From positions 1 to 53,768 of the IMG/VR virus record IMGVR_UViG_3300009034_000051: a DNA stretch of 53,768 nucleotides, one strand, 5' to 3'. Made by a program: the position numbers and the translations under genes. Every line of letters begins with the position of its first letter. Within the stretch, counting starts at the first letter, position 1. The DNA is from a virus. The notes under the pieces were generated by a model. The model was not told the origin of the DNA. It was given only the letters and a program-made list of their open reading frames with translations, and searched no databases. Below, piece after piece: positions 29,501-33,674 of this stretch.

Positions 29501-29770
29501 TCACACATTCTTGCGCCCTCTGCGTTTCTCCGGCGCAATCTCGACAGTAGCATTAGATAGCGGGACAAACCATTCAGCAAAATGATTAACGTGGGCGAAT
29601 CCCATCTGCTTCGTCGGCCATACTTTGCCCGAACCATCATGGTCGGCGAGCCATAGATTAACAATGTCATATGATGTCACGCGCTCGAATATGTAGAGCC
29701 CTGGCTCAAAAGATAAAAAAGGCCTGAACAACGCAAACAGCGCGCCTCGCTTGATGTCGCGAATACCCAT
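29501..29770 (-). CDS. Small hypothetical protein downstream of the beta-helix protein
   Basis: 89 residues. Its ATG overlaps the stop of the beta-helix gene as TAATG. Residues 10-75 (ALFALFRPFLSFEPGLYIFE, then DIVNLWLADHDGSGKVWPTKQ) look folded; the end is basic. No signal peptide. Last gene of the leftward island, converging with the early rightward genes. Confidence 0.5.
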   Translation of the reverse strand: MGIRDIKRGALFALFRPFLSFEPGLYIFERVTSYDIVNLWLADHDGSGKVWPTKQMGFAHVNHFAEWFVPLSNATVEIAPEKRRGRKNV

Positions 29771-30933
29771 TAGCGTCTCCGTATTGCTAGCACGACATCG
29801 GCAATGTCAACTGCTTGATCACCATTGAGATCAGCCGCCTGGATGTTGCCATAACCAGCCAGGATAATACTAACGATGTTCTGGCTCGTCGCTCCAAGCA
29901 AAAATTTCCAGTCGCCGAAGGGTCCGCCATAAGCGCCTAGATCCGACCGCTCGGATCCGCAACCCTTAGCCGGACCATCGCAGTACTGCGGGTCGCCGGC
30001 GTCAATACAAATCGAATCACTAGCTAGTATATATGTGTCATCGGCGAAGCTCGGGCCTTGCGATCTGAAAATAATCGTCGGCCTGTCGCCACGCATCCCG
30101 TGGATGCTAAAGGAATACGCGAGATTGTCATTCCACGGTCCAAGGTCATCCCAAACAGTGCCGCTAAACGCAGGGTCGCCACCGCGTTGACCATAGAAGA
30201 TCGTATTCCTGATGTCTGCGGAAGAAAAACCGAGGCCAGGAAACGGACTCCCGCGATTGTCGAGAACCACATTCTGATGGAAAACGCCATTACACATATA
30301 TCCAGCTGGCCCATTCAGCGCCTCGCTCTGGTAGTCAAATAATAGGAAATTGTTTCGCAGGATTATGTTGTTGCTGACCAATCCATCGCAACCATACAAG
30401 CCCGCGCCATACATAGCAACGTTCTCATAAATCCAATTGTTCAAAATCAGCCCATCACAATCGTAGATACCGCCGCCTTCATGCGCGCGGCAATTATAGA
30501 TTCGGTTAAGCTGGATTGTAGCCATCGTTTTGTTACCTTGGATTCCGCCGCCATGTTCAGCGCTTCCTCGTGTCAAAGTAAAGCCCGCAAGGCCGCAAAG
30601 CGAAGTTTCGCCACCGCTGAACGTGACAACTGGCCCACGATAATCGCCGTCGATAATCGTCGCGGCCGTGATAGTATTGTCTTCTGGGTTGTTCGATCGC
30701 AGAACGATATTCTTTCCCAGGACGTTGATGTTCTCGCGGTAGGTCCCTGGCCTAGCGATAACGATGTCGCCATCGCGAGCTGTTTCGATCGCCGCCTGGA
30801 TCGTCCCGCTCGGATTGGCGATAATTGTGCCTGCTAATGCGCCGCGCGAAACGGCGAAAACCCATGACCAGAGCGCAGATCGGAACATCCTGTGCAAGAT
30901 GAATGGCGCGAGCGAAGCAATAATCGATCTCAT
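29770..30933 (-). CDS. Exported right-handed beta-helix protein with dockerin-like C-terminus
   Basis: 387 residues from ATG 30933 (AGGAGC upstream). The N-terminus has a long hydrophobic stretch (about 1-34, ending SRGALA), read as a signal peptide. Residues 35-300 form a pectate-lyase/NosD-type beta-helix: GTIQAAIETARDGDIVIARP, then repeated NIVLRSNN, GGIYDCDGLILNNWI and GAGLYGCDGLVSNNII rungs. The last 25 residues (DLNGDQAVDIADVVLA) are one half of a dockerin/EF-hand calcium-binding repeat. It is read leftwards downstream of the repressor, so it may be a lysogenic conversion gene that changes the host cell surface. It resembles exported host proteins rather than phage ones. Confidence 0.7.
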   Translation of the reverse strand: MRSIIASLAPFILHRMFRSALWSWVFAVSRGALAGTIIANPSGTIQAAIETARDGDIVIARPGTYRENINVLGKNIVLRSNNPEDNTITAATIIDGDYRGPVVTFSGGETSLCGLAGFTLTRGSAEHGGGIQGNKTMATIQLNRIYNCRAHEGGGIYDCDGLILNNWIYENVAMYGAGLYGCDGLVSNNIILRNNFLLFDYQSEALNGPAGYMCNGVFHQNVVLDNRGSPFPGLGFSSADIRNTIFYGQRGGDPAFSGTVWDDLGPWNDNLAYSFSIHGMRGDRPTIIFRSQGPSFADDTYILASDSICIDAGDPQYCDGPAKGCGSERSDLGAYGGPFGDWKFLLGATSQNIVSIILAGYGNIQAADLNGDQAVDIADVVLAIRRR

Positions 30934-30980
30934 TGTACGTGCTCCTTTCAGCGGTCGCAAATCGCTGGAAAAACTGAGCG

Positions 30981-31009
30981 CGCCTACAAAAAACATCTTG
31001 CAATGTCAA
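30981..31009 (-). promoter_or_regulatory. Weak candidate promoter for the beta-helix gene
   Basis: On the minus strand TTGACA (31009-31004), 17 bases, then TAGGCG (30986-30981). The -35 box is perfect and the -10 box is poor. It would read the beta-helix and the 89-residue gene separately from the repressor transcript. Confidence 0.3.
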
Positions 31010-31313: not shown

Positions 31314-31955
31314 TCAGAATGATGAGGAGTATACTATTTCGACGCTTGTGATTTTCTCGGGGGCGATATTGTGCTCCCACAGACTCAGCGTCCGCGTTTG
31401 ACCACTAACAAAAGTCTCGATACTCTCCCGCGATGCGCTCAGGACCTCGTCGCCGCAGAATAGAGTTACATCAAAACAAGTGTAGGCAAACGTTTTCGGG
31501 CCATTATATGTAACCCGTATCAGGACATCGGACCCGCCATATGGATGCCCAGCAACGGTTGGGCGCGAGTACGTGAACATCTCATCGGAGACGCAAGGAG
31601 GATGTGGATCTCTCGCGGATCGTTGCAGAGATCGATCTGGGAGCGCAACGCGCGCGAACTTTTGCAAAGTCGCCGGCTTGGTTTTTGGATGACCAATGCG
31701 AGACCAATCGATAGGCTGGCGACGGATTCTCACAGACTCAAAGCCGGAAAAATTGCCCGATCGCGCCCCGGAAGATGAGCGATCTGTGGCAATAACCGTT
31801 ACGCAATATGTACCCGTCGTATCACGATAAACTCGACGGACCTCGACGCCTCGCCAGGTGAGCCCAGACTCCCAAGAGATGATGTCTGCAGGAGTTGGCT
31901 GCGCGATGCCAATGGCTGATCCGATCAACGCGCATGTTTTCAATAAGTTTTTCAT
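31314..31955 (-). CDS. Exported protein of unknown function in the repressor transcript
   Basis: 213 residues from ATG 31955 with GGGAG 9 bases upstream; two nearby in-frame Met codons exist further up. The signal peptide is about 1-23 (MKNLLKTCALIGSAIG then ending PTPA). The mature part is beta-rich with Cys residues (TTGTYCVTVIATDRSSS, AYTCFDVTLFCGDEV), resembling fibronectin-like or carbohydrate-binding modules. It lies directly downstream of the repressor genes, suggesting expression in the lysogen. Confidence 0.6.
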   Translation of the reverse strand: MKNLLKTCALIGSAIGIAQPTPADIISWESGLTWRGVEVRRVYRDTTGTYCVTVIATDRSSSGARSGNFSGFESVRIRRQPIDWSRIGHPKTKPATLQKFARVALPDRSLQRSARDPHPPCVSDEMFTYSRPTVAGHPYGGSDVLIRVTYNGPKTFAYTCFDVTLFCGDEVLSASRESIETFVSGQTRTLSLWEHNIAPEKITSVEIVYSSSF

Positions 31956-31981
31956 CGTTGCCATCTCCCGCAAGACAACCG

Positions 31982-32194
31982 TTACTCTCGGCCCGCGTCA
32001 ATCAAAATCGCTGCCCACGTTTCGGACACATCATCTTTGGTCCGGCCGCAGAAGACACCGCATTTTGCCAGAGCCAAAATCGCCTCGCGCTCATCGTCTC
32101 GGATTAGGTGTTGCACTAGTCGCGATGCGAAAAATTCCCGGACGCATTCCGGAAGATCTGTGTTCGCATCCTGAGTGGATGCCTCCGTCGACAT
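31982..32194 (-). CDS. Stand-alone paralogue of the repressor C-terminal domain
   Basis: 70 residues. Residues 13-69 match residues about 92-148 of the adjacent repressor: DLPECVREFFASRLVQHLIR against DLPECVKRFLGSAIVQHKIK, and CGVFCGRTKDDVSETWA against CGVFDRRTASDVEETWA. The HTH is absent. GGGGAGGG lies upstream of its ATG, 4 bases after the repressor stop. It likely oligomerises with the repressor and changes its activity, but this is inference; the fold of this domain is not one recognised here. Confidence 0.7.
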   Translation of the reverse strand: MSTEASTQDANTDLPECVREFFASRLVQHLIRDDEREAILALAKCGVFCGRTKDDVSETWAAILIDAGRE

Positions 32195-32198
32195 GAGC

Positions 32199-32645
32199 CT
32201 ATGCCCTCCCCGAATCGATCAGAATCAACGCCCAGGTCTCTTCGACGTCTGACGCCGTGCGGCGATCGAAGACCCCGCATCGCGCAAGCGCAATAATAGC
32301 GTCTCGCTCGTCGGGCTTGATTTTGTGTTGCACGATCGCCGAGCCGAGAAATCGTTTGACGCACTCAGGCAAATCGTCAATCGAATCAAATAACGCATGA
32401 TCGAGGACATCGGCGAGATCGATCCCATAGATCTCTAATATCCCGGCTAGCTCGTCTGCCCGTAAGCTCGTTTCGCCGCGGCAAAATCTTGAGATCTTGC
32501 CTTGTGATACGCCAGCAGCTGCAGCAAGGCTCGCCTGCTTGGGCAGCCTCCCAGATGTTTTGAGTCGGCCGAATAGAGCCACCAGCTTAGATAATAGATC
32601 AAGCCTGCCCTGGTCATCAGTCACCGACACATCATGATTGCGCAT
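32199..32645 (-). CDS. Repressor (XRE HTH, CI-like, non-cleavable type)
   Basis: 148 residues. An N-terminal XRE HTH (QASLAAAAGVSQGKISRFCRGETSLRADEL split over residues 36-65) is joined to a C-terminal domain of about 60 residues (DLPECVKRFLGSAIVQHKI, then RDAIIALARCGVF). There is no LexA/CI-type protease domain, so RecA-driven self-cleavage is unlikely. It is divergent from the Cro-like gene at 32845 across a 199-base gap with a promoter and dyad, the arrangement of a lysogeny switch. Confidence 0.7.
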   Translation of the reverse strand: MRNHDVSVTDDQGRLDLLSKLVALFGRLKTSGRLPKQASLAAAAGVSQGKISRFCRGETSLRADELAGILEIYGIDLADVLDHALFDSIDDLPECVKRFLGSAIVQHKIKPDERDAIIALARCGVFDRRTASDVEETWALILIDSGRA

Positions 32646-32760
32646 GAGCCAGCCGCAACCAAGAAAATATGACAGACCACATCGTGAGCCTCCCCCGATA
32701 CGCCGAGCTAATTAATCCAGACAAGCAGAGTATCGAGTAGTCGCCGCGCCCCTAAAAATA

Positions 32761-32844: not shown

Positions 32845-33141
32845 ATGAGCGAAAATACGATAGCGACGCCGATCCCATCGCCTGCGGACCTCAAACGCGA
32901 AACCAGGAAGATCGTGGCCCGCCTTCGCGCGCTCCCCCGCAACATCAAACAGACCCAAGTTGCATCCGAGACTGGTCTAGGAAATGAAGTGGTCTCACGC
33001 TTCTTTCGCGGCTTGTGCAAGGAGCCATCGATTGCAACGATCCACAGCATCCAGGCATGGCTCGCCGCTTACGATGCCAAATCCCAGGAAGATAGCGCGG
33101 CAACCCCAGCACGATGCGAGACATGCGAGGGCAAAAAATGA
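32845..33141 (+). CDS. Cro-like HTH regulator
   Basis: 98 residues. A Cro/CI-type HTH at residues 20-75: RETRKIVARLRALPRNIKQ, QTQVASETGLGNEVVSRF and PSIATIHSIQAWLAAYD. It ends with a short Cys pair (RCETCEGKK). It starts the rightward main operon opposite the repressor, so it probably promotes lytic growth. The next gene starts inside its stop (ATGA). Confidence 0.65.
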   Translation: MSENTIATPIPSPADLKRETRKIVARLRALPRNIKQTQVASETGLGNEVVSRFFRGLCKEPSIATIHSIQAWLAAYDAKSQEDSAATPARCETCEGKK

Positions 33142-33674
33142 CTGTCGGTCATACAGTATGTGCGAACGCGGCGAGAGAATCGCCGGAATCAGTTGACGAG
33201 TCATGTCACTTATCGATCGCGCCCAGTGACATCTTGGCATCTTTCGACGGCTGCGATCGTCCCCAGATCGCCAGCCGCATCCATGTCTCGCCGAACACGA
33301 TCAATCAACGGCTGTCCCGCATGGCTCGAGGCGAAAGCGGATCGACATGGTCACTCGAGGAGCTCGTGGCCGTTGCTGACCTGATCCCTGGCTACAGAGC
33401 TCTGCTAGACCACGCAAGCCATCAACGGCACGTGGATACCGAGCTCAACTATGATGTCGCGCTCGGTCAAGCCGCGAGCTTGGCCAAGCGCTTAGCCGGG
33501 ATCGTGGATCAGATCGTCCGGGCAACTGGCCCAAGAGATGACTCGCCATATCACCTGGATGCCGGCGAAATCGAGGATCTCCTGCGCTCAGTACCGAGGG
33601 CGAGACAGATGCTCTATAAGCTCTTGGACACTCTTGAGGCGATGCTGATTACGGAGCGGAGTCAGCTGCCATGA
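33138..33674 (+). CDS. HTH regulator of the lytic/lysogenic switch
   Basis: 178 residues from ATG 33138 (GAGGG upstream). The HTH-like region is RPQIASRIHVSPNTINQRLSR, at residues about 40-62. Helical C-terminal half with a heptad feel (LAKRLAGIVDQIVRATG, EIEDLLRSVPRARQMLYKLL). It might act like CII or as a second early regulator; no family was recognised. Confidence 0.5.
   Translation: MTVGHTVCANAARESPESVDESCHLSIAPSDILASFDGCDRPQIASRIHVSPNTINQRLSRMARGESGSTWSLEELVAVADLIPGYRALLDHASHQRHVDTELNYDVALGQAASLAKRLAGIVDQIVRATGPRDDSPYHLDAGEIEDLLRSVPRARQMLYKLLDTLEAMLITERSQLP

Follow-up and report, generated by a model that had tools for sequence, protein, structure and literature searches.

A phage immunity repressor and a free copy of its own C-terminal domain: a candidate antagonist encoded in the same operon

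The immunity region of a temperate tailed phage carries a repressor gene and, immediately behind it on the same strand, a small gene whose product repeats the C-terminal domain of that repressor as a free copy, without the DNA-binding half. This small gene is more than a chance reading frame: it is a real protein-coding gene, and its product, judged from the sequence, is an old duplicate held under purifying selection. We give a slightly better than even chance to the reading that this selected duplicate pairs with the repressor into one-armed heterodimers with weak or no operator binding, and so limits the active repressor and keeps the prophage inducible. The case draws its strength from gene structure, selection and the probable identity of the domain; we infer that heterodimers form, that the sign of their effect is negative and that the effect plays a part in the switch, and the same applies to how strongly the small protein binds and affects the repressor.

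The repressor operon and its surroundings

The virus record analysed comprises 53,769 bases, in which terminase, portal, head protease, DnaB helicase, exonuclease VIII, methyltransferase and integrase families were recognised, and the repressor gene lies on the minus strand between two divergent operons. The features on which the argument turns are the following.

32199..32645, minus strand: immunity-type repressor of 148 aa, with an XRE HTH N-terminal half and a three-helix C-terminal half
32409..32540, minus strand: repressor HTH domain, residues 36-79 (Pfam)
32205..32387, minus strand: repressor C-terminal domain, residues 87-147, probably a DdrO-like dimerisation fold (AlphaFold and structural match)
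32204-32211, minus strand: Shine-Dalgarno GGGGAGGG of the small gene, within the end of the repressor gene
31982..32194, minus strand: small gene of 70 aa, encoding the repressor C-terminal domain as a free copy, without a DNA-binding domain
31314-31973 (likely ATG at 31955), minus strand: third gene of the repressor operon, 26 nt past the stop of the small gene
32845..33141, plus strand: Cro-like HTH gene, first of the rightward operon and facing the repressor (phrog_6223, transcriptional repressor, E 1.4e-6)

The repressor exceeds the curated Pfam cut-offs for HTH_31 (E 3.5e-7), HTH_26 and HTH_3, its N-terminal half being an HTH of the XRE/Cro-C1 type that DdrO-like repressors also carry, and its PHROGs matches are phage transcriptional repressors. 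The S24 peptidase domain of self-cleaving repressors of the LexA/CI type is absent from it (Pfam, E up to 1); the C-terminal domain is all helical, with helices at residues 94-108, 111-122 and 131-145 in the AlphaFold model.

An earlier note on this DNA had described a 70-residue product matching the repressor C-terminal domain over nearly its full length, and both reading frames are indeed in place: BLASTP aligns residues 9-69 of the small protein with residues 87-147 of the repressor, gapless, with 39/61 identical and 47/61 similar positions (E 3e-27). The good ribosome-binding site that the same note ascribed to the small gene is there as well, GGGGAGGG ending 9 nt before the ATG, and the assignment of the two genes to a single operon agrees with their common minus strand and with the 4 nt that separate the repressor TAG from the small-gene ATG. 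A six-frame search of the record returned the small ORF as the sole second copy of the domain (E 1.7e-22). Similarity between the copies at the DNA level stops at the domain borders on both sides, and the small protein begins with residues that bear no relation to the repressor. The HTH is found by Pfam in the repressor only, and neither an HTH nor any other family exceeds the cut-offs of Pfam, PHROGs or NCBIfam in the small protein.

Several neighbouring elements deserve mention in their own right. A 16-codon ORF, MWSVIFSWLRLAHAQS, at 32632-32682 on the minus strand overlaps the repressor start in a different frame and is served by a very good Shine-Dalgarno, GGGGGAGG (32689-32696), the site at the repressor's own ATG being weak; its arrangement suggests a leader peptide whose translation is coupled to that of the repressor. 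The second gene of the rightward operon (33114-33674, plus strand) overlaps the Cro-like gene, and its product matches sigma-70 region 4 and PucR-type HTH slightly below the cut-offs. No consensus promoter was found. The third gene of the repressor operon has no family match over cut-off, and its N-terminus, judged by eye, reads like a signal peptide. Two apparently secreted proteins are encoded on the minus strand downstream of the repressor and its small companion (31314-31973 and 29770-30996), one of them a beta-helix protein with a dockerin-like stretch at its end (DLNGDQAVDIADVVLAI); their genes are possibly lysogenic conversion genes, and in our own judgement their style recalls Planctomycetota or related hosts.

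Age and maintenance of the duplicate

The two copies differ at 22, 16 and 36 first, second and third codon positions, respectively, and at 13 of the 17 fourfold sites that can be compared; dN is 0.26-0.33 and dS is saturated (1.65 or more). In codon-position GC the small ORF agrees with the repressor as well as with the main genes of the phage. When neutral drift was simulated at 0.4 substitutions per site, a single copy in 4000 was free of stops at the observed identity, and at 0.6 or 0.8 substitutions per site none was. Saturated synonymous sites, a dN of about 0.3 and the simulation together reject a neutrally drifting copy, and by the same token they indicate that the duplication is old and that both copies have been kept as proteins.

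The scans of sequence collections that we carried out rely on short conserved peptides and detect close relatives only; within that reach, neither the repressor nor the small protein nor the alignment of the two found a relative in the viral_contigs, genome_contigs, phages and plasmids collections. Two degenerate DNA patterns covering the C-terminal domain retrieved 6 and 21 stretches, none of which is a relative. Terminase relatives of the phage were found at 12 loci, the best at 43% identity, and three of the longest terminase-related records held no match to the repressor; the terminase profile yielded no stretch in genome_contigs, and no relatives of the exonuclease or of the Gp3-like protein were found. 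A weak match of the repressor to a Porphyromonas phage (26.9%, E 0.06) was discarded, the small gene downstream of it being unrelated to that phage's repressor. A single known case of this kind is what one might expect of an untranslated or functionless duplication remnant; given the open frame, the purifying selection, the codon-position composition and the ribosome site of the small gene, however, we regard such a relic as very improbable.

Nature of the C-terminal domain and inactivation of the repressor

None of Pfam, PHROGs and NCBIfam names the C-terminal domain, and a PDB sequence search with it gave nothing credible; the C-terminal domain of DdrO is likewise unnamed by Pfam. AlphaFold models, built from two-sequence alignments only, are all helical in the C-terminal part of the repressor (pLDDT 77-89) and show a three-helix domain in the small protein, modelled independently (mean pLDDT 83.6). 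VIA-align ranked Deinococcus DdrO first and second for the repressor model (6rnx, Z 6.4, 2.6 A over 55 residues; 6jq1, Z 5.8), with unrelated rows at 4.3 and below, and DdrO again came first for the small-protein model (VIA-align Z 5.9; Foldseek with a poor E-value of 4.2), a Z of about 6 lying in the range of chance matches for small helical domains, so that structure scores alone are insufficient. Foldseek with the whole repressor model returned noise only. Because structure scores are too weak for a small helical domain, profiles were compared with DdrO-like proteins, five of which had been collected from plasmid records. The repressor profile is colinear with four DdrO-like proteins throughout HTH and C-terminal domain (P 4.4e-5, to which the HTH contributes much), the C-terminal domain alone reaches an hhalign E of 0.15 against four such sequences, and its profile scores 18.0 against the five, a value attained by none of 300 column shuffles (mean 9.1, maximum 17.5). 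The C-terminal domain is probably homologous to that of DdrO and is probably a DdrO-like dimerisation domain.

In DdrO, the C-terminal domain dimerises by itself in solution, in two-hybrid assays and in crystals, and the full-length protein requires it both to dimerise and to bind DNA; dimerisation is harmed by the D96R change or by cleavage in the loop preceding the last helix, and the cut made by IrrE, which prefers the monomer, falls in the loop joining the last two helices (PMC8072749). The phage repressor resembles DdrO and the ImmR/DdrO-like repressors (PMC8072749, PMC7907104) in joining an XRE DNA-binding half to a three-helix C-terminal half, and its fold and profile comparisons point to DdrO in particular as a probable relative. 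The aspartate on which DdrO dimerisation depends is also retained, D96 aligning with D112 of the repressor and with D34 of the small protein; the phage repressor differs from DdrO in a longer N-terminal extension.

The usual neighbour of DdrO/ImmR-type repressors is an M78 protease. A search of the 53,769-base record, which is possibly incomplete, returned no match to this family (PF06114, COG2856, IrrE/ImmA-type) at E up to 10; unlike in the DdrO/ImmR systems with IrrE/ImmA, it is a free copy of the C-terminal domain that follows the repressor. An unannotated record of a Kovacikia minuta plasmid encodes, at 1288-2541, a DdrO-like XRE repressor and, three bases behind it, an M78 (IrrE-like) peptidase (E 4.7e-10), a cyanobacterial DdrO/IrrE-like pair, and in the phage the small gene occupies the position that the M78 gene holds there. 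We hold it possible, while rating it clearly below an even chance, that this is a lysogeny module with no protease next door, in which a DdrO/ImmR-type repressor has as its built-in antagonist its own dimerisation domain, encoded a second time on the same mRNA as a free-standing protein.

The repressor may be inactivated either by the small protein or by a host protease, in which latter case the free domain might be a decoy; of these we favour the antagonist. As a decoy or shield, the free domain would soak up an agent that attacks the repressor at its C-terminal domain, such as a host protease of the IrrE/ImmA type or the antirepressor of a competing phage, and would thereby protect lysogeny. 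Such a role would suit the fact that IrrE attacks C-terminal domains of the DdrO type (PMC8072749), the place of the small gene in the operon, just noted, and the loop CGVF..RT, kept in both copies; we nevertheless think it unlikely, as no M78 peptidase is encoded in the phage record and the Leu-Arg at which DdrO is cleaved is replaced here, by alignment, by Val-Phe.

Proposed mechanism, known counterparts and meaning of a possible built-in antagonist

The mechanism that we propose would begin with a repressor of the XRE type that requires its C-terminal domain to dimerise and hence to bind its operators. The small protein, translated from the same mRNA, would pair with the repressor through the common dimer interface, and the resulting heterodimer, having one DNA-binding arm, would bind operators weakly or not at all; at high repressor levels the small protein would thus limit the active repressor and keep the prophage inducible. 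A free folded copy of a DdrO-type dimerisation domain should heterodimerise with the repressor unless the interfaces have become exclusive, and an identity of 64% between the copies leaves room both for exclusivity and for separate partners, which counts against the antagonist reading. The small protein might, for instance, have become specific for the repressors of rival phages, for a host regulator or only for itself, the duplication being old, with 22/61 residues replaced and time enough for exclusivity to arise. That most residues are kept, including the aspartate equivalent to DdrO D96, and that the gene is co-transcribed with the repressor of its own phage make such a change of partner rather unlikely in our view.

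The earlier note had further regarded the small protein as a modulator of lysogeny made in fixed ratio to the repressor. The ratio itself is plausible from the operon; what does not follow is a switch, for in an equal-affinity dimer model with the small protein at ratio r the active homodimer falls to about 1/(1+r) when levels are high and is less lowered when they are low. In this model the small protein at fixed ratio would cap repression and by itself would make no switch, and a trigger would need either proteins of unequal stability or an additional signal. An antagonist made at fixed ratio with its repressor has no obvious trigger, which again counts against the antagonist reading. A single operon and a good ribosome site would equally fit a subunit made in ratio, that is, a positive partner that stabilises higher oligomers or cooperative operator binding, and hetero-oligomers that alter binding without abolishing it do exist (FleT/FleQ, PMC11655674). 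DdrO, the closest structural relative, dimerises via this domain, however, and a one-armed dimer should therefore bind DNA worse; moreover, operator dyads between the divergent genes show no excess over shuffled sequence and no operator array was recognised, and we consider a positive partner quite unlikely.

As to precedents for an antagonist, the statement in the earlier note that no counterpart had been described has to be withdrawn, for regulator homologues without a DNA-binding domain are on record in SinI/SinR (PMC3163267) and in TrlR/TraR, CerN/CerM and FleT/FleQ (PMC11655674). SinI is a 57-residue homologue of the SinR C-terminal domain that draws SinR out of its tetramer into a heterodimer without DNA-binding ability, and the resemblance of SinR to phage repressors has long been noted, according to work cited in that same source (PMC3163267). 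The phage pair shares with SinI/SinR of Bacillus subtilis an XRE-type repressor and an adjacent gene for a small homologue of its oligomerisation domain that lacks an HTH, a layout that makes the small protein an analogue of SinI and not a member of its family. The SinI/SinR interaction relies on a two-helix hook of fewer than 40 residues, whereas the phage domain has three helices and about 60 residues; sinI is under Spo0A control, whereas the small phage gene lies downstream in the repressor operon. Searched against Pfam at E up to 1, neither the repressor nor the small protein matches SinI, and this, together with size and helix number, rules out membership of the SinI/SinR family. TrlR is a TraR without its DNA-binding domain that forms inactive heterodimers, and CerN/CerM and FleT/FleQ are similar (PMC11655674). 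Here too the full-length regulator is under the control of a homologue that has no DNA-binding domain and acts through hetero-oligomers or as an antagonist, but the proteins belong to other families (LuxR type, FleQ), are plasmid-borne or chromosomal and, in the LuxR cases, depend on a ligand. Trans-acting antirepressors of prophages are expressed from separate, damage-controlled promoters and are not known to duplicate a domain of the repressor they act on. What they have in common with the proposed antagonist is that a small phage protein inactivates a phage repressor (PMC3121763).

Word searches of the literature in an incomplete library found no such pair described in a phage immunity operon; an antagonist copy in this setting appears to be new, the type of mechanism being known from bacteria. 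If our reading is correct, the phage would tune or open its immunity switch with a second, free copy of the domain through which its repressor dimerises, as bacteria have come to do with SinI/SinR and TrlR/TraR. The pair would provide a two-gene part of about 660 bases with which the effect of a co-expressed dominant-negative partner on the lysogeny decision may be tested, and it would widen the known range of DdrO-type dimerisation domains to include phage repressors that have no partner protease.
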